From Nitrospirota bacterium (lineage in GTDB: Bacteria > Nitrospirota > Nitrospiria > Nitrospirales > Nitrospiraceae): DNA of 64,000 bases. The notes under the pieces are model-generated. The model saw only the letters and a list, made by a program, of their open reading frames with translations. It was not told where the DNA came from and did not search any database. This document shows, one piece after another, positions 5,586 through 30,022 of the stretch (its first letter is position 1; the number at the start of each line of letters is the position of its first letter). The stretch covers positions 62,001 to 126,000 of the forward strand of contig JAUSMA010000017.1 in the NCBI GenBank assembly GCA_030645475.1, read 5' to 3'. Both the position numbers and the translations under genes were made by a program.

Positions 5586-7578
<1,993 letters not shown>

Positions 7579-7838
7579 AACGATACCCTCCTCCTAAAGT
7601 TAACCCAGTGAAAATAAACGATGTAGAACAGGTGCGAACTCGATGGCGTAATCGTGGTACTCCCGACGAGCAGAAGCCCTGGTCTGCTGAACACGGGAGT
7701 AGAGATAGCCTCGGGTTCGTCCAAGTCAAGGGGGAGAAATGGGGAAATTCTTCCACGCCCTCAGAACAGGGACGGAGGCATCATAACCTATTGAGAACGG
7801 GGTATTCTAGACATTCTTTCGGTGGGGATTCCCTGTGG
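7579..7838 (-). promoter_or_regulatory. groES leader region with a candidate promoter
   Basis: The 260 bases between rpoH and groES hold no gene I can support. On the minus strand, TCTCCCCCTTGACT (TTGACT at 7724-7729) precedes TATCTC (7702-7707) by 16 bases. CTTGA preceded by a C-run resembles a sigma32 -35 element, but the -10 CCCCAT box is not clear. I found no CIRCE inverted repeat (TTAGCACTC/GAGTGCTAA). Confidence 0.35.
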
Positions 7839-8855
7839 TCAGATCCGCAAGCGGTCGAAATCTTTGATGTCTTTCTTAATGTAGTCACGCAGGCGCTTGA
7901 TGATTCGAGCTTCCAGCTGCCTGGTGCGCTCTTTTGTAATGGAGTATTTGCCGCCGAGGTCTTCGAGGGTGAGAGGGGTTTCTGAGAGAATCCGGTTTCG
8001 CAAGATGTCTTCGTCCCGTTCGTCGAGCGTCTTAATGAATTCGGCGAGCTTGGTGCGGAAGAGTGTCTGTAGCTGGGTCTGTGCCAGTTGCTCATCGGCT
8101 GGTACCTGTTGCGAGGGCAGCACATCCAGCAGGCTGCCTTCCTGGTCTTCGCCCAGCGGTTGGTCCAGCGATAGTTCCCAGTTGCCCAGCCGCTGACCCA
8201 TTTCGATGACGTCTCGCTCCCGTACATTCAAACGGTCTGCGAGGAGCTTCGTGTCCGGGGCAAAGCCTTCGCGCTCAAGCTTCGCTTTTTCTTTTTTCAG
8301 ATTATAGAACAGCTTGCGTTGATCTTGGGTCGTCCCGATCTTGACCAGCCGGTAGGTATTCAACAAATACCTCAGGATATAGGCTCGCGACCACCAGGCG
8401 GCATAAGCGTAAAAACGCACGTTCTTCGACGGGTCGAATTTCTTGATGGCATGCATAAGCCCGACGTTGCCCTCTTGAATGAGGTCCATGTGGTCGGCGC
8501 CGGTGTGGAGATATTCAGCGGCAATGGAGAGCGAGACCCGCAGGTTGGCCATGATGAGCTTCACGGCGGCTTCGCGGTCCCCGTTGTTCCGGTATTCATG
8601 GAACAGGCGCAGTTCTTCTTCTTTGGTGAGGTAGGGATAGCGCCGGACTTCGGCCAGGTATTGCTGGAGTGCGGTAACCGGCGCCACGGCCGTGATATCG
8701 GAGGCCTGCGCGCCGTCAGGGGTTGCACCGTGAGAGGCTTCGGGAGGCGGGCTGATCTCGGCGATCTCCTCCTCGGACGGGTCCAGGACCTCGGGTTCGA
8801 GCGGTTCTTCGTCTAGATCTTTGTCGCGCGGACTCATAACGGGCGAGATTATCAT
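7839..8855 (-). CDS. rpoH: RNA polymerase sigma factor, RpoH (sigma32) type
   Basis: 338 residues. After an acidic, Pro-rich N-terminal 60 residues come region 1.2 (LQQYLAEVRRYPYLTKEEE), region 2 (HMDLIQEGNVGLMHAIKKFDP, then RFYAYAAWWSRAYI for -10 recognition), region 3 and region 4 (TLEDLGGKYSITKERTRQLE). The stretch QRKLFYNLKK at 179-188 matches the RpoH box that separates heat-shock sigmas from RpoD and RpoS. It directs transcription of heat-shock genes and sits immediately upstream of groES-groEL on the same strand. ATGs at 8855 and 8837 are both possible starts; neither has a good ribosome site. Confidence 0.88.
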   Translation of the reverse strand: MIISPVMSPRDKDLDEEPLEPEVLDPSEEEIAEISPPPEASHGATPDGAQASDITAVAPVTALQQYLAEVRRYPYLTKEEELRLFHEYRNNGDREAAVKLIMANLRVSLSIAAEYLHTGADHMDLIQEGNVGLMHAIKKFDPSKNVRFYAYAAWWSRAYILRYLLNTYRLVKIGTTQDQRKLFYNLKKEKAKLEREGFAPDTKLLADRLNVRERDVIEMGQRLGNWELSLDQPLGEDQEGSLLDVLPSQQVPADEQLAQTQLQTLFRTKLAEFIKTLDERDEDILRNRILSETPLTLEDLGGKYSITKERTRQLEARIIKRLRDYIKKDIKDFDRLRI

Positions 8856-8871
8856 AAAGAACCGTCAGCGG

Positions 8872-8931
8872 AGTGCTGAAAAAGTCCGCCACCGGGGGAA
8901 CGCTGAACGGTGAGCGATGAGTGATGAAAAA
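8872..8931. repeat. Half copy of family A plus family E repeat
   Basis: The gap 8856-9059 between divergent rpoH and the NarK-like gene contains GTGCTGAAAAAGTCCGCCA, one arm of the family A palindrome, followed by GGTGAGCGATGAGTGATGAA, a family E word. The remaining 120 bases show nothing I can name; both genes' promoters must lie here. Confidence 0.5.
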
Positions 8932-9059
8932 GGGGGGCGTCGCTTCTCAGTTCCGCAATCGTCGGTCGGGTTATCGTCCACGGTGGTCGTTCGCTTGCGC
9001 GAATGAAAGGTGGTCCCATATAGTAGACGGCTCTGTAGATTGGGAGAAAGTCGATTGCG

Positions 9060-10286
9060 ATGACGGACATGTTTCTCGCCCTCACTCGTGGCCATTGGCC
9101 CACATTGATTGGATCGTGGCTGCATCTCGCGGTCAGTTTCATGGTGTGGCTGCTGCTTGGCGCCCTGAGCATTGTGCTCGCGGACAGTCTGCAATTGACC
9201 GGTACGCAGACGGCAGTGATCGTCGCGCTCCCGATGTTGGGCGGTGCGTTGCTCCGGGTGCTGGCCGGTTGGAGCAGCGATTGGTACGGGGCGAAGCCGA
9301 CGGGAATATTCATTCTGGTGGGCGAGTTGGCAGTCGTCGTCTGGGGGTGGTTGGGCGTTCATAGTTATGTTGAGCTGCTCGCGGTCGCATTTTTGCTCGG
9401 TATCGCGGGGGCGAGCTTTGCGGTGACCTTGCCGTTGGCGGGCCGGACCTATCCGCCCGCCCATCAAGGGTTGGTGCTGGGCATCGTGGCGTCGGGGAAT
9501 GTCGGCACCGTGTTGATTCTCTTTTGTGCGCCACGGATTGCGGCGATGAGCGGATGGCATGCCGTATTTGGATGGATGGTGCTGCCGATTCTTCTCAGCC
9601 TGGCCGTATTCGTGTTTTTCGTGCGTGACGATCGGCAGAGCCGGCGGGCCGAACGCGATACCCATTGGTGGCACAATGTGGCCCTGATGGTCCGGCACCC
9701 GAAAGCCTATTGGCTCTGCGGGCTCTATGCCGTGACGTTCGGCGGGTTTGTCGGGTTCTGCAGCATGCTGCCGCTCTTCTTCCACGAGCAGTACCACGTG
9801 GATGGCATTGCCGCCGGCTCGATTGCTGCTTTGTGTGGATTGGTGGGCAGTCTCATCCGTCCGCTTGGCGGTCATGCCGCTGACCGGATCGGGGGGTTGC
9901 GAACACTCTTATTGGCCTTACCCTTCGTCGCAGGCTTGGTCGCGGTGCTGGGCCATGTCACGGATGTCACGGTCGCCGTCGGGTTGATCGTCGCAGCCGT
10001 GGGCGCCATGGGGGTCGGCAACGGAGTGATTCTCCAGCTGGCCTCGGAATGGTTTCCCAAACAGATTGGTCTTGCCTCTGGGATCGTAGGGGCGGCGGGC
10101 GGGGTTGGAGGGTTTCTCTTGCCTCTTTGGTTGGGAACGCTGAAAGAGGTTACTGGCTCCTATCGAGTCGGCTTGTGGCTCTTTGCCGCCGCCGCGGCTT
10201 GCGCCTGGGGTACCGTGCTGTTGGCAGAACGACGGGCACAGCGCTTGACTCAGCCTATGGATGCACAGGGCCGTTTTTCCCGTTGA
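9060..10286 (+). CDS. Nitrate/nitrite transporter, NNP (NarK/NasA) family of MFS
   Basis: 408 residues with about 12 membrane segments. The diagnostic NNP stretch is present near 125-158: GASFAVTLPLAG, then YPPAHQGLVLGI and ASGNVGT; the second half carries a matching WFPKQIGLASGIVGAAGGVGG near 330-350. Family members move nitrate and nitrite across the inner membrane as symporters or exchangers. In a nitrite oxidiser it may bring in nitrite or expel nitrate, but direction cannot be read from sequence. It stands alone between rpoH (divergent) and ribBA. A GGGAGAAAG ribosome site lies about 10 bases before the ATG. Confidence 0.85.
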   Translation: MTDMFLALTRGHWPTLIGSWLHLAVSFMVWLLLGALSIVLADSLQLTGTQTAVIVALPMLGGALLRVLAGWSSDWYGAKPTGIFILVGELAVVVWGWLGVHSYVELLAVAFLLGIAGASFAVTLPLAGRTYPPAHQGLVLGIVASGNVGTVLILFCAPRIAAMSGWHAVFGWMVLPILLSLAVFVFFVRDDRQSRRAERDTHWWHNVALMVRHPKAYWLCGLYAVTFGGFVGFCSMLPLFFHEQYHVDGIAAGSIAALCGLVGSLIRPLGGHAADRIGGLRTLLLALPFVAGLVAVLGHVTDVTVAVGLIVAAVGAMGVGNGVILQLASEWFPKQIGLASGIVGAAGGVGGFLLPLWLGTLKEVTGSYRVGLWLFAAAAACAWGTVLLAERRAQRLTQPMDAQGRFSR

Positions 10287-19595: not shown

Positions 19596-21092
19596 ATGGA
19601 TATGCCGCACACCAAGAAAGAGTTTCCTGTCCTGTCGCCCGCCATGGCTGGTGATGCACATTTGAACTTGATTTCTCCCGATAAGTTTCACGATGAATGT
19701 GCCGTCTTCGGCATCTATGGCCACAAGGAAGCGGCGAACCTCACCTATCTTGGCTTGTATGCGCTGCAGCATCGCGGGCAGGAAGCCTCCGGCATCGTCG
19801 CGGGCGACGGGGAGCAGTTCCATGTGCATAAGGGCAAGGGACTCGTCGCGGATATCTATAATCCGAAGGCGCTGGATCAATTAACCGGATCGCGGGCGAT
19901 CGGTCATAATCGCTACTCGACAGCTGGCGGAAACGATCTCAAAAATGTGCAGCCGCTCTCGGTGAATTTTGCGCTCGGGAATCTCGCGCTCGCCCATAAC
20001 GGGAACCTCATCAATGCGCAGGTGTTGCGTCACGAGCTCGAAGCCTACGGCGCCATTTTCCAATCCACCTCGGACAGCGAAGTCATCATTCACCTGGTCG
20101 CCCATTCGCGGGCCGATACCTTGTTGGCCCGTATCATCGATGCTTTGAGCCAGGTGCGCGGAGCCTTCTCGGTTGTCATGCAGACGGACGACGCGGTGAT
20201 TGCGGTGCGCGATCCCCATGGGTTCCGTCCGCTCTGTCTCGGCCGGCTGGGTGATACCTATCTCGTGGCATCGGAGACCTGTGCGTTCGATCTGCTCGGC
20301 GCTGAGCTCGTCCGTGAGATCGAGCCAGGAGAACTCGTCGTATTGGACGACAAGGGTGTCACAAGTTATCAGCCCTTTCCGCCGGTCAGTCCCGCCATGT
20401 GCGTCTTTGAATATGTGTACTTTGCCAGGCCGGACAGCAAGATTTTCGGTGCCAACGCAGTCTATGCGACGCGCAAGGCGTTGGGCAGACAGTTGGCGAA
20501 GGAATCCGCAGTCCCGGCGGATATCGTTGTGCCCGTGCCGGACTCCGGGGTGCCTGCCGCGCTTGGGTATGCCGAGGGAGCGGGGATTCAGTTTGAGCTC
20601 GGGCTGATCCGGAACCACTATGTCGGGCGTACGTTCATTGAGCCGGAGCAATCGATCCGCCACTTCGGTGTGAAGGTGAAGCTGAACGCCGTGCCGGAGG
20701 TCTTAGCGGGGAAACGGGTCGTTGTGGTCGATGACTCTCTCGTGCGGGGCACGACGAGCCGTAAGATTGTGAAGATGCTTCGCAATGCCGGGGCCAAAGA
20801 AGTGCATATGCGCATCAGTTCGCCGCCGATCATCTCCCCCTGTTTCTACGGCATCGACACGCCCACCAGGAAGGAATTGATCGCCTCCAGCCATTCCACC
20901 GAAGAGATCCGCAAATACATCACGGCCGACAGTCTCGCCTATTTGAGTCTCGATGGGATGCTGAACGCCGCCCCCGGCACACCGGGCCAATATTGCAACG
21001 CCTGCTTTACCGAGCGGTACCCCATTCCTCTGACCCGCGCTGAGGAATGGCAGTTGGGCCTCTTCGACCCTTCCCTCTCGCAGGATACGTAA
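19596..21092 (+). CDS. purF: Amidophosphoribosyltransferase (Fe-S type)
   Basis: 498 residues from the ATG at 19596; the same frame is open back into purL. It starts purine synthesis by adding ammonia from glutamine to PRPP. An N-terminal propeptide of about 30 residues precedes the nucleophile in [10 protein letters not shown]. The PRPP loop is [13 protein letters not shown]. Cysteines in [14 protein letters not shown] and YCNACF sit where the Bacillus subtilis enzyme holds its 4Fe-4S cluster, so this should be an oxygen-sensitive Fe-S PurF. Last of the pur genes here. Confidence 0.95.
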
Positions 21093-21448
21093 ACCGTCCC
21101 GCTCAAGAGCCATCCGCTCGTCCTCCACACTCTTCACGCTGTAGGGCCTTGTTGAGGCTACTGCCAGACGTTCGACTATCGAAATCCAACGAGCTCCAGA
21201 TCCTGCTTCACGATCCTGACAGACAGACTCTCTCCTTTGACATTCACCGTTCGTTCTTGTGCAGGTCTTCACCTCTCTCGCTACCAAAGTAGGGGCCGTT
21301 CCCAGCTTTTAGGGATCTAGGCAGAGAGAGGGGATTGCATTACCGTGCCTGCATGTCCGCTCAGACTCCTGCAGGCCAAGGGGTCCATGGATATGGAGTG
21401 ACATCACGAGTGCTGGTATTGGCCAGAGACGATAAGGAAGGTGCCACG
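21093..21448. other. 356-base gap after purF
   Basis: No gene or repeat that I can support. A TTGACA at 21238 has no matching -10 box at 17 bases, so I do not call a promoter. The frame of the next gene is open through part of this gap but lacks a convincing start there. Confidence 0.4.
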
Positions 21449-22471
21449 ATGATCATGACGTCGACGCTGCAGGAACTGCTGATCTCGTTCCATGGAGTGG
21501 CGGTCCGGTATCTGGCCTCTTCCCCTGCATTGCTCAGTCCCGTTGCCCTGTTCCGCCAGCACTATCGATGTGATGATGTGGCTCATAATCCGCTCACGAT
21601 TCAATTCGAAGAGGTGGGAAGTCGTGGAGACGTGCCGGTCCATCTATCGCCCTCGGCACGACAACTGTTCTCCGGGACCAAGCCCGCGCTCGGTGACGCA
21701 TTACGCGTTCTCTGGCACTGCACGATCGCACAAGACGGCGGGTGCCTCGTGGTGGATCTTCATGAACAGGGAGCGCTGGTGATCGATGGCGACCGGGGGA
21801 CTGCGCGGGGATATTTCGTTCATCCGGAGGCGATGCATGCCGACTTACGCGCGAGCTTTTTTCATTACGCCTTGGCGGAGCTGTTGAAGAGCCGTCGCGC
21901 GCACATGCTGTATGCCGCGGCGTTGGAGTATCAGGGCTCCGGGGTCCTTATTGCCGGCCACCGGGGGTGCGGTCGAACGACCGCGATGCTCGCACTGCTT
22001 CGCGCCGGCTACCGCTATCTTTCCGACGATCATCCGTTGCTGCGGGATCATGGCTCGAATATAGAACTGCTGTCCTTCCCGATGACGATCGAGGTGACGG
22101 ACTGCACGATCGGGTTCTTCCCTGAGCTCCAGCAGGCCGAGCCAGGCTTGGTGCGCCAGGGTGCCTATAAGAAGCATTTTGATGCAGTGGATCTGTATCC
22201 GGAATCAGTCGGTACGTCCTGTGCACCGGCCATGCTGCTCTTTCCTCTTGTGGCGGATATGCCCTACAGTTGTCTTGAACCGTTGTCCAAGAGCCAGGCG
22301 CTTGACGCCATTCTGCCGCAAGCCGCATTCCTGTCCGATCGGGATATTGCGCGACAGGATTTCCACCCCTTGTCGAGATTGGTGCAGCAGGCCGATTGTT
22401 ATCGCCTGCACTTTGGGCAGGACGTGCTCGATCTGCCTCGACTGATTACTCCCTTGTTGGGACGGAACTGA
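21449..22471 (+). CDS. HprK-like P-loop protein with altered Walker A
   Basis: 340 residues from the ATG at 21449, which has AAGGAAGGT eight bases upstream. The C-terminal half resembles HPr-kinase/phosphorylase-like domains: a strand GVLIAGHRGCGRTT (Walker A loop at about residues 170-177), then GYRYLSDDHPLL, where DD matches the second acidic motif. The invariant Walker A lysine is replaced by arginine, so ATP binding or hydrolysis may be changed. The N-terminal 130 residues look like a separate beta-rich domain. HprK-like proteins of this kind often occur in peptide-modification loci, but no precursor peptide is visible nearby. Substrate unknown. Confidence 0.65.
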   Translation: MIMTSTLQELLISFHGVAVRYLASSPALLSPVALFRQHYRCDDVAHNPLTIQFEEVGSRGDVPVHLSPSARQLFSGTKPALGDALRVLWHCTIAQDGGCLVVDLHEQGALVIDGDRGTARGYFVHPEAMHADLRASFFHYALAELLKSRRAHMLYAAALEYQGSGVLIAGHRGCGRTTAMLALLRAGYRYLSDDHPLLRDHGSNIELLSFPMTIEVTDCTIGFFPELQQAEPGLVRQGAYKKHFDAVDLYPESVGTSCAPAMLLFPLVADMPYSCLEPLSKSQALDAILPQAAFLSDRDIARQDFHPLSRLVQQADCYRLHFGQDVLDLPRLITPLLGRN

Positions 22472-22581
22472 TCTGTCCGTCCTGCATGCTTCCACAATGA
22501 GCCATTGTTTTTTTCTGCCACGTCGACGTTGCCCGGCCTCCATTGCCCCTGAAAAATTCTGCATGGTAGGATAGCAGCGAC

Positions 22582-22680
22582 GAAGAGCTGATGGCGTATA
22601 GCGTATGGCAACAGTAAAGAGTTCGATCTGAAGGCAACTCTTTACACCATCAGCTATATGCTATCGGCTATAAGCTCTTC
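22582..22680. repeat. Family C palindromic repeat, full copy
   Basis: GAAGAGCTGATGGCGTATAG ... TAAAGAGT on the left is answered by ACTCTTTA ... CTATAAGCTCTTC on the right, an imperfect palindrome of about 99 bp ending just before the thioredoxin-like gene. Confidence 0.6.
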
Positions 22681-22697
22681 TCGAAATGGAGGCTCTC

Positions 22698-23231
22698 ATG
22701 AAACGAACATTGTGGGTATTGGGCGCGCTGTTGTCTCCGATCCTTGCGGCCCATCTGGTCCTTGCCGCGGGATCGTTCAAGCTCGGCGAGAAGGCGCCGT
22801 CGTTTACGTTGACAGCCGTTACGGGCGAGACCGTGGGGCTGGATAGCTATAAGGGAAAGGTTGTGGTCCTCGGGCTGTTTCATATCTGTGACCCCTGCAT
22901 GATGCAGGGCACGACGCTGCAAAAAGTGTCAGAGGTCATGAAAGGCAAAGAGGTTGCAGTACTGGGTGTCAATTCGTCTGGCGACTCCAAGAAGAGTGTC
23001 GGCGAGTTTCTGTCCGCCTTTCCGGTGAAAGTCACCTATCCCTATCTGCTCGATCCGAGCAAGGTGACGGATAAATTGTACGGCGGTGGGAAGTTTATTC
23101 CCAACGTGTATGTGATCGATCAACAGGGCGTGATCCGGTGGCAGCGTGTCGGTAATATGGATCTGGCCGGAGATGCGGTGATTGTGGCGGAAGTCGAAAA
23201 GTTGTTGGCGGCTGGAAGCAATAAGATGTAA
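22698..23231 (+). CDS. TlpA/AhpC-like periplasmic thioredoxin-fold protein
   Basis: 177 residues from the ATG at 22698, served by GGAGG (an in-frame ATG at 22686 contains that ribosome site and is less likely). A signal peptide of about 24 residues is followed by a redoxin domain: KLGEKAPSFTLTAVTG, VVVLGLFHICDPC with a CxxC pair (C64, C67), and FIPNVYVIDQQGVIRW near the C-terminus. It probably reduces or transfers disulfides in the periplasm, for example in cytochrome maturation; partner unknown. Confidence 0.8.
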   Translation: MKRTLWVLGALLSPILAAHLVLAAGSFKLGEKAPSFTLTAVTGETVGLDSYKGKVVVLGLFHICDPCMMQGTTLQKVSEVMKGKEVAVLGVNSSGDSKKSVGEFLSAFPVKVTYPYLLDPSKVTDKLYGGGKFIPNVYVIDQQGVIRWQRVGNMDLAGDAVIVAEVEKLLAAGSNKM

Positions 23232-23304
23232 GAAGCAGGAAGACGGGGACTCTCCCTGCTTAGCGGCGAACCGACTTCCGTGAGGGAGAGGAAAGAAGAA
23301 GACG

Positions 23305-23544
23305 ATGGATGAGATGGAAGTGGGCAAGCAGAAGTTTTTGGAGCTGGTGAAGGGGGCCGATGCCGCCGTGCAGGTTGTGATTCCTGTGACGCCTTCAAAT
23401 AGTATGTTTCTGATCTCCCTCACGAAGGGGCCGAATCGGAAATTCATTACGATTTCTGAAGACGACATTATCGATCTGCCGAACGAAGCCAGCATCCTGA
23501 CGAAAGTCACGAAAGTCGTGAAAGATGCCGTCGCCGCATTGTGA
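23305..23544 (+). CDS. Small conserved-looking hypothetical protein
   Basis: 79 residues, ATG at 23305 with GGAAAGAAGAAG upstream. Compact alpha/beta sequence with no cysteine, signal or membrane segment (VQVVIPVTPSNSMFLISLT, FITISEDDIIDLP). I do not recognise it. It lies between the thioredoxin-like gene and the four-gene overlapping set and may belong to either. Confidence 0.55.
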   Translation: MDEMEVGKQKFLELVKGADAAVQVVIPVTPSNSMFLISLTKGPNRKFITISEDDIIDLPNEASILTKVTKVVKDAVAAL

Positions 23545-23589
23545 GTCTGTTCGTGCTATCAACGATCAGTCATCGATTGTTATCCTACT

Positions 23590-24192
23590 ATGAAAAACAT
23601 TCTTCCCGGTATCTGGCAATGGTCCTGGTTCTCTGAGGAGAAGCAGATCGATTTCAACGGGCTCTTTTTGACCGTCGGGGAACATAAGATTCTCGTCGAC
23701 CCTCCTCCGATGACCGGGGACGCGAGTGCCGTGATCCTTCGAAACGGACCTGTCGATTACATCATCGTCACGAATCGCGATCACGTGCGCGAAGCGGTGA
23801 AGTATCAGGATGAGTTTCGCTGTCAGCTGCATGTGCCGGAGGTGGACGCGCCGCTGATGGATCTGAAGCCGTCGAAGACGTTCAAAGATGGGGAATTGCT
23901 CATCGGCGGGATCTGGGTGATCCAGCTCAAAGACCAGAAGTCTCCCGGCGAGTCGGCCCTGTTCATTCAGCAGCGAAAAGGTGTGCTGATTGTCGGCGAT
24001 GCCCTGATCGGAAAACCCGCCGGCTCCGTCAGTATGCTCCCCGCTGAAAAATATGCCGACATGGCGAAAGCTCAGGAGGGACTCCGTCGCCTCCTCAAGT
24101 ACAACTTCGATAGTCTGCTCGTCGGCGACGGGACCTCGATTCTCACCGACGCCAAGCCGGCGGTCGAACGATTGCTCCAGCCCGCATCATGA
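23590..24192 (+). CDS. Metallo-beta-lactamase-fold protein lacking key histidines
   Basis: 200 residues. The order of strands fits the metallo-beta-lactamase fold: LFLTVGEHKILVDPP, VDYIIVTNRDH, and GVLIVGDALIGKP near 135-148. The metal motif HxHxDH is reduced to TNRDH, so the first two ligands are missing and hydrolase activity is doubtful. Its stop overlaps the ATG of the TPR gene, the first of three ATGA or GTGA overlaps that link four genes up to 26520. A structural or binding role is more likely than classical hydrolysis. Confidence 0.65.
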   Translation: MKNILPGIWQWSWFSEEKQIDFNGLFLTVGEHKILVDPPPMTGDASAVILRNGPVDYIIVTNRDHVREAVKYQDEFRCQLHVPEVDAPLMDLKPSKTFKDGELLIGGIWVIQLKDQKSPGESALFIQQRKGVLIVGDALIGKPAGSVSMLPAEKYADMAKAQEGLRRLLKYNFDSLLVGDGTSILTDAKPAVERLLQPAS

Positions 24193-25013
24193 CGCTACGG
24201 AACGGACTTTCCGAAGAACTCAATCGCCAGGGCAACGAGCATTTCTCGCGCGGTCTCTATACCGATGCCTATACCTGTTATGCCAAGGCGTTAGAATGCG
24301 ACCGGCTGACCGGCAACCAACGGGCGTTGGCATCCACGTTGGGCAATCTCGGAAACATTTGTGCGGTCAGCGGGCGTCGAGAGTCGGCGCAGAGCTACTA
24401 CCAAGAGGTGCTGGAGCTGCAGAAGATTCTGGGGGATGAGAAGGGGATCGGGACGACGCTGGGCAACTTGGGAAATCTGAGAGCCGATGCGGGCGAATGG
24501 GATCGTGCCAAGGCCTATTACCTCGAAGCGTTGGATCTCATGAGTAAGGTCCACGATGAGGCGGGCAAGGCGGTATTATTTTCGGATCTTGGCTTGGTCG
24601 CCCGCGAGACCAAAGAGTTCGACCAGGCGATCGGATACTACGAGCAGTCGCTGGTCCTGATGCGGCGGTTGGCGAATCAGGGTGGCGTGGCCGATGCCTG
24701 GCGCATGATCGGGCGAACGTTTTTGATGCAGCAACGGTACGACGATGCCATTGCCTGCTGCCAGACCAGCCAGTCCATTGCCGAGCGTTCGCGCGACGAG
24801 TTGCGGACCGGCGGGGCCCGGTATCTGTTGGCACAATGTTATGAAGAAACCGGCAAGTTGCGAGAGGCGGCAGATCTTCTTGAACTGGTGGTGCGGATGG
24901 ATCGCAAGTACCAGCTGCCGAAACTCGAAGAGAATATTCAACGGTTGGCGGCCCTGCGTGCCAGTCTTGCCGGGCAGGACGGTCCACCACCCCATCGAAA
25001 GGCGCGCGCATGA
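24189..25013 (+). CDS. TPR-repeat protein
   Basis: 274 residues, mostly tetratricopeptide repeats. About six units are visible, each with the W/G/A/P spacing (for example ALASTLGNLGNICAVSGR, GTTLGNLGNLRADAGEWDRA, AVLFSDLGLVARETKEFDQA). Such repeats make protein-binding scaffolds. No signal peptide, so probably cytoplasmic. It overlaps both neighbours by four bases and is certainly co-translated with them. Confidence 0.85.
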   Translation: MTLRNGLSEELNRQGNEHFSRGLYTDAYTCYAKALECDRLTGNQRALASTLGNLGNICAVSGRRESAQSYYQEVLELQKILGDEKGIGTTLGNLGNLRADAGEWDRAKAYYLEALDLMSKVHDEAGKAVLFSDLGLVARETKEFDQAIGYYEQSLVLMRRLANQGGVADAWRMIGRTFLMQQRYDDAIACCQTSQSIAERSRDELRTGGARYLLAQCYEETGKLREAADLLELVVRMDRKYQLPKLEENIQRLAALRASLAGQDGPPPHRKARA

Positions 25014-25447
25014 GTACTGGAGCCCCGACAGCCTGGACGGCATTTAAGGCCTCGCTGGCCCCTGTGTTTCCGCGGTTAATCGAGTTGGAGCCGGGCGGTC
25101 CGATGGCGATGGAACTTGGTCACGATGGATGGCTGTTGGAGCTGACGCCGGACGGGAAGCTTCTCTGCCAGTATGGGATGGCGTTAGACGATGTGATGAC
25201 GCTGCTCTCCGATGGGACGCCGGAGGATCTTGGCACCGACGAGATCGCCAAGCAGGCCAAGTATTATATCCAGCCGGCCGTCGCAAAGTACCGTGCGATT
25301 CTGTTGCAGTCGGGGTTCTCCGAACGGACGGAGATGAACGACAACTATGTGGCGGCCTGCTTTGAACGAAGTGTGGACATGACCAATCCTCTGGCCGCGC
25401 AGGACTTGATGCGTTGGTGTGTGAGGACGATCGGCGTGGAGCGGTGA
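25010..25447 (+). CDS. Hypothetical protein in overlapping operon
   Basis: 145 residues. The N-terminal half reads like a small sensor or chaperone-like fold (MAMELGHDGWLLELTPDGKLLCQYGM), and the C-terminal half is helical. Four cysteines are scattered without a recognisable metal motif. No family recognised. It overlaps the TPR gene by ATGA and the methyltransferase gene by GTGA, so its product is probably made in step with both. Confidence 0.65.
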   Translation: MSTGAPTAWTAFKASLAPVFPRLIELEPGGPMAMELGHDGWLLELTPDGKLLCQYGMALDDVMTLLSDGTPEDLGTDEIAKQAKYYIQPAVAKYRAILLQSGFSERTEMNDNYVAACFERSVDMTNPLAAQDLMRWCVRTIGVER

Positions 25448-26520
25448 GCCGGCAGATCGCGACGTTCGATGATTTGCGCGATGCCATTACGGCCTACCGG
25501 TTACCGCGAGTTCTGATCGCCGCCCTTGAACTGAATCTCTGTACGACCGTCAGTACCAAGACCTGGACGATTCCCGCTCTCGCTCGCGAGATGCAGGTCA
25601 GTGAGCGGGGGTTGTCCATCCTCTGCCGGAATCTCGCGATGGCCGGCCTGCTGAAGAAGAAAGGCGAAACCTACCGGAACAGCCGATTGGGCGCCACGGC
25701 CTTGAACGCAGCGCATCCCGCCTATCGAGGAGACTATCTCCGGCTCATGACAAGCCATTGGGCCGATTGGGGCCGTCTGTTGGAATCGGTACAGAGCGGA
25801 CTGCCGCTCGATCACGATGAACCGGATGAGCCGGACTATCGTCGCCGGTTCACGTGGGCCATGCATCACCGGACCTTGGAGACGGCGCCACAGATTGCCG
25901 CCCAACTCAACCTGCGTGGGGCGCGGACGCTGCTCGATCTTGGCGGCGGTCCCGGTACCTATGCCATGGCTTTCCTCGCAAAGAATCCGCAACTTCGTGC
26001 CACGGTCTGCGACCGTCCCGCAGCCCTCGACGTGGCGAAGGAGATTGCCGCGACTCACAAGGCGGGCTCCCGACTCTCTTGTCTCCCTTTGGACCTGCAG
26101 ACGGACCGCATCCCCGGCACCTACGATGTCATCTGGTATTCGAACGTCCTCCACATCTATTCACCGCAAGACAATCGGGCGGTATTTCAGCGGGCGTTGG
26201 CCGCCTTGAACCCTGGGGGCCGCTTGCTGATTCAGGATGCTTTTCTCCATGACCGGGAAGGACTGCATCCCGATGAGTCGAGTCTCTTTGCGGTCTCGAT
26301 GTTGTTGTTCACTGAGCGAGGCAATACCTATGCGGCAGCCGAAACAAAGGCCTGGTTGACGGATGCGGGATTTACGCGGATCAAGACTGTGCGGATGAAG
26401 AAGGGGACGGAGGACTGGGAGGATGGGATCCTGGAAGCACGGTCTCCTGGAACGCCTGTAAAAACGCGCGTCCGCCGAACACAATCAGCGAACAGTTCGC
26501 GGCCCCGCTCATCACACTGA
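25444..26520 (+). CDS. SAM-dependent O-methyltransferase-like protein
   Basis: 358 residues from a GTG overlapping the previous stop. Residues 1-95 form a winged-helix dimerisation domain (LPRVLIAALELNLC, IPALAREMQVSERGLSILCRNL); the rest is a class I methyltransferase with the SAM loop LLDLGGGPGTYA near 168-178 and ALNPGGRLLIQD later. This matches small-molecule O-methyltransferases such as hydroxyneurosporene or hydroxyindole types. Substrate unknown. Its last 140 bases overlap a convergent membrane-protein gene, and the tail after about residue 335 looks disordered. Confidence 0.8.
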   Translation: MSRQIATFDDLRDAITAYRLPRVLIAALELNLCTTVSTKTWTIPALAREMQVSERGLSILCRNLAMAGLLKKKGETYRNSRLGATALNAAHPAYRGDYLRLMTSHWADWGRLLESVQSGLPLDHDEPDEPDYRRRFTWAMHHRTLETAPQIAAQLNLRGARTLLDLGGGPGTYAMAFLAKNPQLRATVCDRPAALDVAKEIAATHKAGSRLSCLPLDLQTDRIPGTYDVIWYSNVLHIYSPQDNRAVFQRALAALNPGGRLLIQDAFLHDREGLHPDESSLFAVSMLLFTERGNTYAAAETKAWLTDAGFTRIKTVRMKKGTEDWEDGILEARSPGTPVKTRVRRTQSANSSRPRSSH

Positions 26521-26797
26521 AGAACAACAGGGTGCCAATTTCGGCCTGTCCTCCCAAGATGCTTGTGACCGTGGCAAGATCCAAGGCCAATCCCACCGTT
26601 CCATAGATGACGCAGGCCATGGCGGTCCAGGTCCATCCAATCCAGACGAGTCCTGCGAGGGCGAGAGGACAGACAACCAGATAGAGCATCCATGCGATTC
26701 GGCCTGCCGGAGTCGCAGCGGGTGTGAGCTGGGTGGTCTGGGCTCCAATGAGGCAGAGTCCTGCGAGTAGGCCGATGATCGTCCAGGTATGGCGCAT
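26381..26797 (-). CDS. Four-helix membrane protein
   Basis: 138 residues from the ATG at 26797; the frame is open to 26833 but neither start has a clear ribosome site. Hydrophobic segments at about 5-22, 36-54, 58-78 and 86-108 make a small integral membrane protein; the C-terminus is Pro/Ser-rich. It overlaps the methyltransferase gene tail to tail. No family recognised. The membrane pattern supports a real gene, although part of its C-terminus lies opposite the methyltransferase. Confidence 0.5.
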   Translation of the reverse strand: MRHTWTIIGLLAGLCLIGAQTTQLTPAATPAGRIAWMLYLVVCPLALAGLVWIGWTWTAMACVIYGTVGLALDLATVTSILGGQAEIGTLLFFSVMSGAANCSLIVFGGRAFLQAFQETVLPGSHPPSPPSPSSSAQS

Positions 26798-26850
26798 AAA
26801 GAGATGATACCTGCGGTTTGCTCCATACAGCAACAGGACTCCGTCATTCT

Positions 26851-26930
26851 GGCGAGAGACAAGGGGCTAGAGGCTAGGGGCGAAGACTTTACGCCGAAAG
26901 CATGGCGCTTCCCGCTCGCCACTTGCCGGA
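26851..26930. repeat. Family D repeat
   Basis: GGCGAGAGACAAGGGGCTAG followed by AGGCTAGGGGCG, answered weakly by CCCGCTCGCCACTTGCC. It lies between the divergent membrane-protein and DCC genes. Confidence 0.45.
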
Positions 26931-26985
26931 ACAGTTGCACAATTTCGCGCCGAACCGTTGAGTGAGCGACCGTGGGGGAGAGACG

Positions 26986-27402
26986 ATGGCCGATCCATCT
27001 GATAATGCCCCGCAAGTCTGTCTGTTGATCTACGACGGAGAATGCCGCCTCTGCGTCACAGCCAAGAAGGGGCTCGAACGGCTGGAGACGCAGGTAGATG
27101 CCACCACGATCAGGATGGTTCCGTATCAGAGCGAAGAGGCCAAGCAGGCCTTGGGGGCGGTCTATCGGCCTGGTCGCCCCGACGTCGCTTTCCTGATTCG
27201 CTCGAATGGGGAGATTGCCAGTGGGCTCGATGCCTTTCTGGCCCTCCTGCCGGGCCTCAAGGGCGGGCGCATTCTGTCAGGTCTCTTCAGTATCCCGCTG
27301 GTCAAGCCCATCGGCTATCTCTTGTATTGGTGTGTGGCCCGGTGCCGGTACGCGGTCTTTGGCAAGGTTTCTCTGGCCGAGGGCGCGGGAAAACCTCGTT
27401 AA
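26986..27402 (+). CDS. DCC-family thiol-disulfide oxidoreductase-like protein (DUF393)
   Basis: 138 residues from the ATG at 26986 with GGGGGAGAG just upstream. The family mark is at the N-terminus: LIYDGECRLC, giving a CxxC pair (C20, C23) after the YDG turn. DCC proteins have a thioredoxin-like fold and are thought to handle thiols; function is poorly known. A hydrophobic segment near 100-120 (FSIPLVKPIGYLLYWCV) is usual for the family. Confidence 0.8.
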   Translation: MADPSDNAPQVCLLIYDGECRLCVTAKKGLERLETQVDATTIRMVPYQSEEAKQALGAVYRPGRPDVAFLIRSNGEIASGLDAFLALLPGLKGGRILSGLFSIPLVKPIGYLLYWCVARCRYAVFGKVSLAEGAGKPR

Positions 27403-27572
27403 TCGGCTAAAGAACCCCCGTATCACGGTCGCATTCCTCCTCGCATTTTCCCTAATCCAGTGCGGTAAGCCTGCCCGTCTCCCCCCTTTCGGAGGGGGTT
27501 CCTCCCACAGTGGGGAATTTACCCCGAAAGCTGTCAATGCGAGACTCCAGCACAAGCAAGGGGGACCAGCAC

Positions 27573-28493
27573 ATGACGATGATGCAGTGGCTATCTCAGA
27601 CGATAGACGAAATGAGCGAATGGTTCAGGCCGATCTGGCGTGAGTTAGCCCCGGTCTATCAGAGGCGGCAGATCGGCGGGCGGAGGAGGAAGGTCTTGTG
27701 CGTCGCGTTGGCCGTCGTGGCCAGTTTCAGCTCCGGCGTTCCAGCCACCGCCTGGTCCGCAGATGTGCCGTCTCTCGTTCCTGCGAAAGTTAGAAAAGTC
27801 GTGGCAGCTGGGGTTGGCTATGAGAATGCCGAGACCTCCTCGATTACCGTGAAAACCTACGATGCTGAGACTGGTACGGTGTTGACCGAGGACACCTATG
27901 AACTGAACGTGCGAGAGGATGCCACGTCAGCAGCCGGTCAACCGCGTGAGCGGATTTTTGCGGGAGGAGTCGGCCCGGGAGCAGACGGACTCTCAACCTT
28001 TTCCCTTCGCGTCTATGACGCGGCCACAGGCAAGTTTCTCTGGGAAGGTCTCCTCAATCTCAATGTCAGCAATCAGGAGTCGGATTTCACGCACCGGGTC
28101 GTGGCTCATCTTGCGCCACAAGCGATGGTGACTCAGGTCCGAAGCCGGGGCGCGATCGACGGTCAACCCCAGTTCTTCCTTCGTGCGGTCGATTCGGTAA
28201 GCGGACAACTGGTATGGACCGATCATTTCTCAGCGGGCTCTGGTACGCTCGCTCGCGCAGAACGTATCGGCAGGGCGGTCGTCGGCCAGACGGAAGGGTT
28301 CTCGGCTCCTTCTCAACAGATCGAGTTTCGCATCAGGATGTTCGATGATGGGAGCCGGAAGCTGTTGTGGGAAGATACGATCGAGCCGAGCGAGGAGGAG
28401 ACTGAAGTCGCAGTCGGGCAGGATGATGCCGCTGAGATCCTGCCCGCTTGGCATAGTGCAGAACCCAAGGATGTGATCGAGGAAACGATCTAG
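27573..28493 (+). CDS. Exported or membrane-anchored hypothetical protein
   Basis: 306 residues from the ATG at 27573 (AGGGGGA upstream). A 40-residue basic N-terminal region precedes a hydrophobic segment (VLCVALAVVASFSSGV) that ends in TAWSA, either a long signal peptide or an anchor. The rest is beta-rich with three or four similar units, each with the pattern VYDAATGKFLWEG or VDSVSGQLVWTD, reminiscent of a PQQ-like or other beta-propeller blade but too few for a closed propeller. C-terminus acidic. Family not recognised; probably periplasmic. Confidence 0.6.
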   Translation: MTMMQWLSQTIDEMSEWFRPIWRELAPVYQRRQIGGRRRKVLCVALAVVASFSSGVPATAWSADVPSLVPAKVRKVVAAGVGYENAETSSITVKTYDAETGTVLTEDTYELNVREDATSAAGQPRERIFAGGVGPGADGLSTFSLRVYDAATGKFLWEGLLNLNVSNQESDFTHRVVAHLAPQAMVTQVRSRGAIDGQPQFFLRAVDSVSGQLVWTDHFSAGSGTLARAERIGRAVVGQTEGFSAPSQQIEFRIRMFDDGSRKLLWEDTIEPSEEETEVAVGQDDAAEILPAWHSAEPKDVIEETI

Positions 28494-28556
28494 AGAGGAA
28501 GGAGTGGGTTCAATCTATCGAAAGCCAGACCTCTGAAGCGACAATTGTTTTGCTCT

Positions 28557-28590
28557 TCATCGTGCATCGCTCATCGCTCACCGTTTCCCC
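28557..28590. repeat. Family E repeat
   Basis: CATCGTGCATCGCTCATCGC followed by TCACCGTTTCC, the reverse complement of the words at 8895 and 41969. It sits between convergent genes. Confidence 0.45.
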
Positions 28591-28591
28591 G

Positions 28592-30022
28592 CTAGCTCTT
28601 TTTCACCTGCACCTGTAACTGATCGAGCCACCGAGACTGGAATTGCTCATACGACAGCGATAACTGCGATTGCATGGCGGCAGAGAGCGCCTGCCGGGCT
28701 TTGAGATGTGAGAGCAGGCCGTGCACTTGGTGCATGCCGAAGCGGTCGATCAGATAACGAACGGCCGAGTTGGCTTCCTGATAGGCGAGGGCTGCGGTTT
28801 CAGGGGGCAATTCGCCCCATGCCCCTTCTAAGGCAGGCAGAGGAAGCAGCGTGTAGTCCTGCTTCATCATCCGGTCGAGGTCCGACCAGCGATCCTCGGA
28901 CAACTCCATCGCTAACCCTTCATTCAGCCAGGTCGGGAAGGCGCTACTGGCTGGGCCCTGTTGGTCGTGCAGTAGCGCATGGACGAATTCGTGCCGCAGC
29001 ACCTGCCTGAGCCAGGCACGGTTTACCAGGGTGCCTTGCACAGGGACTTGGATGCGTCCGAGCACAGGGTCGAAGAGTCCATCGGCCCAGGCCGGACTGC
29101 CGGTTTCCGATTGGAACGTGGAGTTGGCTTGGAGGACGACGACGATGGGTTTTGACGGGAAATGTCCGAATCGTTGGCCGATCTCCCGATAGGCCTCCTC
29201 CAGAATCTCCAGCACGGCGACCCAGGTTGCCTGATCGGCTTCCCCGTCGAATTTGACGGTAAAGTGGGTGCTGTCCCGGCTGGTGAGCCGCGCATCGCTC
29301 TTCTCGGTTCGGCGGACCTTGGCCGTGACGGTTTTCAGATAGGATTGCACGGCGGGATCTTTGCCCGCGCGGGCTGTGGCCAGGTCGAGGTGGCGGGCGG
29401 CTTCACCGAGTCGGTCCCGTTCCTGAAAGAGCTCGGCCAATGCCAGATGGGGGAACGCTTCGTTCGGAGCCAGGGCCACCAGCTTTTCCAAAAAGCTCTG
29501 CGTCATGGCCGGATCACGGAGCTCCCAGTAGGCATGGGCCAGGTTGAGATGAATGGTCGGGCTTTTACTGTCCAGCGACGAGGCCTTTTTGAATGCATAG
29601 ACCGAGGCAGAGGTCCCTCCGGCCTTTTCGAGTTGGATGCCGAGATTGTTCCACAGCACCGCGACATAGGGACGGGTCTTTTCGTCCGATGATAGGCCGG
29701 GCGGCAGATCGGTCAGTTTGGTTTCTGCGATTTTGACGTTTCCTTTTTCGATTTCGTCGCGAATCGTTTCTAAGAGTTCATGATGCGTCGTGTCCGGGAC
29801 CACCGAGGGATCGATCAGGCGAATCTGTTTCGGTTCCGGCTCTGCGGGACCTGTATATTGTGGTTCTGGTGGCGCCTCCTTTGCGCTTTCCACGACAGTC
29901 TCGGGCTGGCTTGGCGGCGGCGTCAGGAGGTAGGTCGGTTTGAACCAGGCTTGATAGACGATGAACAGCCCCAGGAGGCAGGCGATGGGATACAAAATGT
30001 GGCCAATATTACGGCGGTACAT
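28592..30022 (-). CDS. TPR protein with C-terminal HExxH peptidase-like domain
   Basis: 476 residues from the ATG at 30022 (AGAGG upstream; the frame continues to 30088). An N-terminal membrane anchor (about 10-26) is followed by a Pro/Glu linker, three or so TPR units (about 115-220) and a gluzincin-like domain: HEFVH at 354-358 and the downstream Glu in WLNEGLA (E378) give the expected zinc set of the peptidase MA group. It probably acts in the periplasm facing the cell wall. Substrate unknown. It is divergent from recG across a 200-base gap. Confidence 0.75.
   Translation of the reverse strand: MYRRNIGHILYPIACLLGLFIVYQAWFKPTYLLTPPPSQPETVVESAKEAPPEPQYTGPAEPEPKQIRLIDPSVVPDTTHHELLETIRDEIEKGNVKIAETKLTDLPPGLSSDEKTRPYVAVLWNNLGIQLEKAGGTSASVYAFKKASSLDSKSPTIHLNLAHAYWELRDPAMTQSFLEKLVALAPNEAFPHLALAELFQERDRLGEAARHLDLATARAGKDPAVQSYLKTVTAKVRRTEKSDARLTSRDSTHFTVKFDGEADQATWVAVLEILEEAYREIGQRFGHFPSKPIVVVLQANSTFQSETGSPAWADGLFDPVLGRIQVPVQGTLVNRAWLRQVLRHEFVHALLHDQQGPASSAFPTWLNEGLAMELSEDRWSDLDRMMKQDYTLLPLPALEGAWGELPPETAALAYQEANSAVRYLIDRFGMHQVHGLLSHLKARQALSAAMQSQLSLSYEQFQSRWLDQLQVQVKKS

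Follow-up and report, generated by a model that had tools for sequence, protein, structure and literature searches.

Proteins of the YbjN family are described as acting through protein-protein contacts and without enzymatic action (excerpt of PMC5398634), and one of them, DR1245, binds DdrB, its loss slowing growth (excerpt of PMC3575483). The fold of Escherichia coli YbjN (PDB entry 6vu7), Erwinia amylovora AmyR (5frk) and Deinococcus radiodurans DR_1245 (4h5b), and that of the class I type III secretion chaperones SycT, ExsC and CesT, resembles the fold predicted for S145, a 145-residue protein encoded in the stretch of DNA studied here. This stretch, called the window, comprises 64,000 nucleotides of a Nitrospirota bacterium of the family Nitrospiraceae (contig JAUSMA010000017.1, positions 62,001 to 126,000; source genome of 3.75 Mb in 71 contigs). 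The gene for S145 stands in a run that also encodes a 79-residue protein (s79), a metallo-beta-lactamase-fold protein (MBL), a tetratricopeptide repeat protein (TPR) and a methyltransferase (MT).

MBL and MT have relatives of known structure. PDB entry 2p97, a PF14597 protein titled 'Hypothetical protein' and presumably from Anabaena, matches MBL over nearly its full length (8.6e-30) and carries the motifs TNxDHxR, KTPGE, GD and GDG that match those of MBL; the difference is that MBL is here co-encoded with TPR and s79. The O-methyltransferases of the Methyltransf_2 family (2r3s, RedM, MmcR, DSYB) share both domains with MT, with profile matches of 4e-36 to 4e-26, but MT is separable from its operon. 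The best-supported account of the run is a protein-interaction module of s79, MBL, TPR and S145 with an accessory methyltransferase. Those parts for which a match was found fall into known folds or families; the matches of s79 are weak only. In the literature, covered by titles and abstract starts with subscription papers and preprints outside the search, no description was found of the gene cluster, of the combination and its lineage-wide conservation, or of the pairing of a secretion-chaperone-like protein with a TPR protein. The genes are the following:

23305..23544, forward strand: s79, an acidic 79-residue protein without a Pfam match; core member
23590..24192, forward strand: MBL, a PF14597 metallo-beta-lactamase-fold protein with an altered active site (motifs TNRDHxR, KxxGE, GD, GDG); core member
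24189..25013, forward strand: TPR, a 274-residue tetratricopeptide protein (PF13424, 2e-35); core member
25010..25447, forward strand: S145, an acidic 145-residue protein (pI 4.5) with a predicted fold like that of secretion chaperones and YbjN; core member
25444 (GTG start)..26520, forward strand: MT, an S-adenosylmethionine O-methyltransferase-like protein with a dimerisation domain (PF00891, 2.1e-18; PF08100, 3.1e-9); accessory

Gene order, overlaps and range

An earlier note on this DNA had described four genes, MBL to MT, joined by three overlaps. The open reading frames (ORFs) and the overlap letters, ATGA at 24189, ATGA at 25010 and GTGA at 25444, agree with that description; a longer reading of MT from TTG at 25414 is also open. 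In 20 loci of the family, hand-picked for spread over 15 genera, the genes run redoxin, s79, MBL, TPR, S145, MT, and the suspicion that the thioredoxin-like and 79-residue genes upstream belong to the neighbourhood is thereby borne out. The exceptions are L072, which meets a contig end, L081 without the redoxin, L077 without MT and L074 with a fragmentary MT (labels beginning with f, g, G and L are working labels for families, genera, genomes and loci). The order MBL-TPR-S145 is found in 19 of the 20 loci, the last being cut by the contig end, and the redoxin is adjacent in 18 (missing in L081; L072 cut). In 18 of these loci S145 is followed by an MT ORF of at least 333 residues; the gap between the two ranges from -4 to 1212 nt and exceeds 400 nt in L066 (424), L067 (1212) and L072 (1195). 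The sister family f2 has the full order from redoxin to MT in 9/9 fetched loci, all with a 4-nt overlap of s79 and MBL when the first start codon is taken. The genes are thus neither scattered in relatives nor overlapping only in the window, the two outcomes that the earlier note had named as telling against it.

Across the family, S145 occurs in 138 of 147 genomes (106/109 of good quality). MBL was found in 144 of the 147 at E <= 1e-3, comprising 139 strong matches (E <= 1e-50) and 5 weak matches to other metallo-beta-lactamase-fold proteins, and MT in 146 at E <= 1e-10, a count that includes a second MT about 35% identical and located elsewhere in many genomes. TPR has a mean column identity of 80% (20 rows). 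The same genes are present in Nitrospira moscoviensis (NZ_CP011801), where the run from s79 to S145 spans 1236983-1239165, and the closest named relatives of S145, among the best 80 of 153 confirmed matches, are from Nitrospira and from Nitrospirota metagenome-assembled genomes. A profile of S145 matched 80 of 245 genomes of the phylum: 62/62 in the family, 14/15 in the sister family, 4/11 in the rest of the class and 0/157 outside the class. The other three core proteins were sought in class genomes only, where s79 matches 102/116, MBL 103/116 (at 1e-8) and TPR 89/116 (at E <= 1e-60).

With start codons chosen by script as those nearest to the homologous start, the TPR/S145 overlap is -4 in 20/20 loci of the 15 genera, that of MBL/TPR in 3/19 and that of S145/MT in 6/18. 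Nearer relatives, 80 loci of named records that represent the best 80 of the 153 confirmed matches, keep the -4 overlap in 73/79 for TPR/S145, 52/76 for MBL/TPR and 74/78 for S145/MT. The tight overlap is general across genera for TPR/S145 only. It had been claimed that the overlaps force co-translation of four proteins. This does not hold, because the MBL/TPR and S145/MT overlaps do not extend throughout the genera and because S145 is preceded by its own Shine-Dalgarno-like AAAGG, as judged by eye; none is evident before TPR, likewise by eye. A consensus scan of 22450-27600 gave 1 promoter-like site, against 1.4 expected, and 7 terminator-like sites, against 3.7 expected (sd 1.9); no site clearly splits the unit by its position, and Rfam found no family within 20000-30000.

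The methyltransferase and the core apart

MT scores above the cut-off for PF00891 (66.9 bits) and PF08100 (37.0 bits), which makes it a Methyltransf_2 domain protein, and its best PDB profile match is 2r3s (4.3e-36). His237, which we take to be the putative catalytic residue, is invariant in 18/18 rows. In genus g18 this gene is decaying beside the others. Twenty loci of the genus were read, 16 chosen for a weak MT match and 4 for comparison; in 18 of them MT either is broken or was not detected (16/16 weak-match loci, 2/4 comparison loci). Among the weak-match loci, 9 retain broken or partial remnants of MT and 7 show no detected MT, one of the latter, L233, ending 0.8 kb past S145. In the comparison loci it is intact in L238 and L239, the latter copy having a single stop at its very C-terminus (query position 338 of 339), and broken in L236 (a frame break near codon 284) and L237 (stops and frame breaks). 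Over the matched stretch s79, MBL, TPR and S145 have no internal stop in 20/20 of these loci. Errors in draft assemblies are possible causes of the decay, but the pattern recurs in separate genomes. MT is accessory and separable from the core; in g18 it is not kept with the core genes, as a tailoring enzyme of a biosynthetic gene cluster would be. The loss of MT beside an intact core makes it unlikely that these are four co-translated proteins of one biosynthetic pathway.

Of the class genomes, 34 lie outside the order Nitrospirales, and loci were read in 24 of them (unread: G258, G269, G280, G288, G330, G341, G342, G344, G346 and G347). Two or more core genes stand side by side in 16. Family f3 has TPR-S145 in 3/3, with s79-MBL in G243 and a weak partial s79-like match abutting MBL in G333. 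In f7, s79 stands with S145 in 6 of 7 genomes, the seventh, G340, being a 4-kb contig, and a whole TPR lies between the two in G272, G319 and G339. MBL-TPR is found in 6/6 genomes of f8, one cut by a contig end (L244), and is also adjacent in f40. The core genes are considered linked because only their pieces stay adjacent outside the order, in several combinations. No relative of MT was seen beside core pieces in the loci fetched there; f6 has a weak profile match to a different methyltransferase (4e-4), 7 kb from S145.

Some further neighbours were observed in these families. A block of pterin dehydratase, DUF971, MBL and TPR is present in 6/6 loci of f8 (L208, L240-L244), followed by a major facilitator superfamily (MFS) transporter in 5. 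A GHMP-kinase gene, homoserine-kinase-like by eye, directly follows TPR-S145 in 3/3 loci of f3 (L119, L213, L252). In f6 (L120, about 6079-10283), S145 without TPR lies near genes that by eye resemble those for ectoine and hydroxyectoine synthesis, an aminotransferase class III being confirmed.

The proteins of the core

The MBL protein belongs to PF14597, Lactamase_B_5 (101 bits against a cut-off of 28.4). Its positions were mapped to the usual metallo-beta-lactamase ligands by motif order. The earlier note had reported that the first two metal ligands are missing; both His residues are indeed absent, and by the same mapping the third and fourth are missing as well, so that the HxHxDH motif with further His ligands of a catalytic metallo-hydrolase is not found. 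Ten residues (T61, N62, D64, H65, R67, K117, G120, E121, D137 and D180) are invariant in 120/120 aligned relatives, and position 60 is V, L or I. The rows come from the family (97), the sister family (9) and the rest of the class (14), and among them are close relatives and some duplicate genomes. The word 'degenerate', which had been used of this protein, does not suit it. Since the replacement residues are invariant and the pattern is common to 2p97, the site (Asn, Asp-His, Lys, Asp, Asp) is a fixed alternative variant and not the product of decay.

S145 had been left unassigned, and with respect to Pfam it remains so, having no match there. Its AlphaFold2 model (pLDDT 86.9, pTM 0.80, from 59 rows) consists of a helix, three strands, a long helix, two strands and a helix. 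Its acidic residues E72, D73, D77 and E78 are invariant. Judged by their titles or protein names, 26 of the 34 top structural rows, with Z of 5.2-8.0, belong to type III secretion chaperones or to YbjN proteins. The best match is SycT (Z 8.0, rmsd 3.4 over 103 residues), and the named YbjN and secretion-chaperone entries lie at Z 5.8-8.0. The predicted model thus agrees moderately with the overall fold of the YbjN/class I secretion-chaperone superfamily. S145 is not classed as a member, because it has no Pfam-profile match. It further differs from both groups in lacking any sequence match to them and in being encoded with a TPR protein and not with an effector; Pfam showed no effector among ten scanned window genes, and no search was aimed at type III secretion genes. 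A match to 7rdr, 'Circular tendon repeat protein' (E 1e-10), is judged an artefact of a repetitive target because no single stretch passes the threshold.

The model of s79 is alpha-beta-beta-beta-alpha (pLDDT 85.0, pTM 0.69), the five models spanning 57.0 to 85.0. Its likeness to ribosome hibernation factors (HPF, Z 5.6; best Foldseek E 0.05) is too weak to use. An origin of the unit in phage or defence systems was also considered and is rejected on the results from PHROGs, which matched s79 once at chance level (E 0.25) and MBL and S145 not at all, and from PADLOC, which gave none for s79, MBL and S145, generic TPR matches for TPR and a partial methyltransferase match (mad2, 1.7e-10) for MT.

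Neighbours and possible roles of the unit

Two genes related to thiol redox chemistry flank the unit in the window:

22686..23231, forward strand: redoxin of 181 residues with an AhpC-TSA/Redoxin domain (PF00578, 1.1e-18; PF08534, 1.6e-16), a CDPC motif and, by eye, an N-terminal signal-like stretch; conserved neighbour, also adjacent in 9/9 loci of the sister family
26986..27402, forward strand: DCC1-like thiol-disulfide oxidoreductase (PF04134, 3.9e-14; start by eye); recurrent neighbour

Downstream of the unit a minus-strand ORF is found in 19 of the 20 family loci, often with a DCC1-like gene too. In the window this ORF (26381-26833, minus strand, 150 residues) has no Pfam family above cut-off, and its 3' end enters the 3' end of MT by about 140 bases on the opposite strand. 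On the other side lies an HprK-related kinase-like gene (21335-22471, plus strand), whose HprK_rel_A score of 48.5 bits falls short of the cut-off of 200; 6/20 family loci have a homologue upstream of the unit. Outside the order the DCC1-like gene adjoins s79-TPR-S145 in f7 and MBL-TPR in f40, and it recurs as a partner of core pieces together with DUF971 (f3, f7, f8) and pterin-4a-carbinolamine dehydratase (f7, f8). The iron-sulfur scaffold HCF101 carries DUF971 as its C-terminal domain, whose function there is termed elusive (excerpt of PMC7980591). One type of MFS transporter recurs in f4, f8 and f41, the f8 and f4 copies being 48% identical, while rhodanese and Rieske proteins each occur once near core pieces. 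Relatives of the MFS, DUF971 and dehydratase genes are located on other contigs of the window's own genome.

A reasonable if tentative explanation is that the products of the unit form a cytosolic complex for client binding or assembly, with s79, MBL, TPR and S145 as its core and the methyltransferase as an accessory. TPR and S145 would be made together and would bind each other. S145 is probably small and dimeric, of the secretion-chaperone/YbjN type, and together with the TPR solenoid may keep hold of a client protein that is not yet assembled. The site of the PF14597 protein would bind a ligand or a single metal, through Asp64, His65, Asp137 and Asp180 and with Lys117 where a His ligand would usually stand, and would not carry out classical two-zinc hydrolysis. 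The s79 protein could be a small adaptor, and MT would be a separable methyltransferase of small molecules or proteins that joined the operon in the order. Since genes connected with thiol redox chemistry and with cofactors are found repeatedly near the pieces, the most likely client would be a redox or metal-cofactor protein. What we infer here is the role in assembly, the client and the redox or cofactor link. The earlier note had proposed an uncharacterised biosynthetic or assembly unit; a conserved unit it is, and 'assembly' is compatible with what was found, but a single biosynthetic unit of four is at odds with the separable MT.

Several observations count against an assembly complex built on TPR and S145. 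Eight of the 34 structural rows for S145 are not chaperones or YbjN proteins; three of these are the unrelated phage T4 MotA, which reaches Z 7.0 at rank 5, level with chaperones; Z values up to 8.0 can be reached by models without a clear match or kinship. Foldseek gave no match for S145 below E 0.03, and 0/26 of its relatives match the YbjN or chaperone Pfam families at E <= 1. Distance matrices gave no signal of co-evolution of TPR and S145 beyond background (partial r -0.19), and a mirror-tree comparison of 171 locus pairs had no usable signal once the purine genes were removed, the largest partial r being 0.35 for redoxin/TPR. In f7, TPR is partial in G337 and G338 and was not seen in G335, while s79 and S145 are kept (L246, L247, L249), which speaks against an obligate TPR-S145 pair. 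TPR, S145 and MBL lie on separate contigs in f6 (G267). The AAAGG of S145 weakens the case for its translation with TPR, and the redox and cofactor neighbours differ between families and may be relics of an ancestral gene order.

Such an ancestral order could also account for the whole unit without joint function, as a slowly shuffled stretch beside purine genes. PurF is upstream of the unit in 17/20 family loci, the stretch from PurF to a RecG-like gene is largely syntenic in the family, the redoxin and DCC genes also lie within it, and the pieces part outside the order. We regard this explanation as improbable, since the core genes are adjacent in other combinations outside the order, L119 and L121-L122 keep core adjacency with no window purine genes nearby (in these loci only), and the TPR/S145 overlap is kept in all 20 loci though the flanking gaps vary. 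A biosynthetic unit, in which MBL and MT act on a small molecule and TPR and S145 are scaffolds, has in its favour that two enzyme-like folds share one operon, that the solved relatives of MT include the small-molecule O-methyltransferases RedM, MmcR, SibL and DSYB, and that near relatives mostly keep the S145/MT overlap. It too seems rather doubtful given the decay of MT beside an intact core in g18, the absence of MT relatives beside those core pieces that were fetched from outside the order and the missing His ligands of MBL.

The YbjN family is often annotated as sensory-transduction regulators, and the unit might be a regulatory module in which the YbjN-like S145 and TPR titrate a regulator and MBL senses a ligand. 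The AmyR paper has a section on gene regulation via specific interactions (excerpt of PMC5398634), and TPR, S145 and s79 match no enzyme family in Pfam. Pfam matches no DNA-binding domain in the proteins of the unit, and proteins so widespread and so strongly conserved are more readily reconciled with a constitutive function, so this explanation is unlikely. A narrower form of the assembly complex has also been considered: a Nitrospiria-specific system that, apart from secretion systems, uses a secretion-chaperone-like protein and a TPR scaffold to mature a central redox enzyme. Nitrospirales have both the full operon and NxrB-like subunits, and nitrite oxidoreductase or one of its partners could be the client there; we consider this proposal highly speculative and very unlikely. 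TIGR03478 matches at E <= 1e-30 are present in 59/82 genomes of the order and 1/34 class genomes outside it, none of them over the cut-off and mostly from ORFs of about 435 residues that we infer to be NxrB-like. The 23 genomes of the order without a match may lack it since multi-copy genes assemble badly. A role only in nitrite oxidoreductase was rejected, as core pieces occur in class members without a TIGR03478 match, which is a weak test.

Nitrospira are main nitrite oxidisers and include complete ammonia oxidisers. The operon is kept in most genomes examined, and S145 was found in 0/157 genomes of the phylum outside the class; together these mark a lineage-specific physiology. The decayed MT copies of g18 provide a natural experiment that separates the role of MT from that of the core. 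Should the core prove to be an assembly complex, a conserved Nitrospira protein that depends on assistance in folding or in acquiring a cofactor would be its client.

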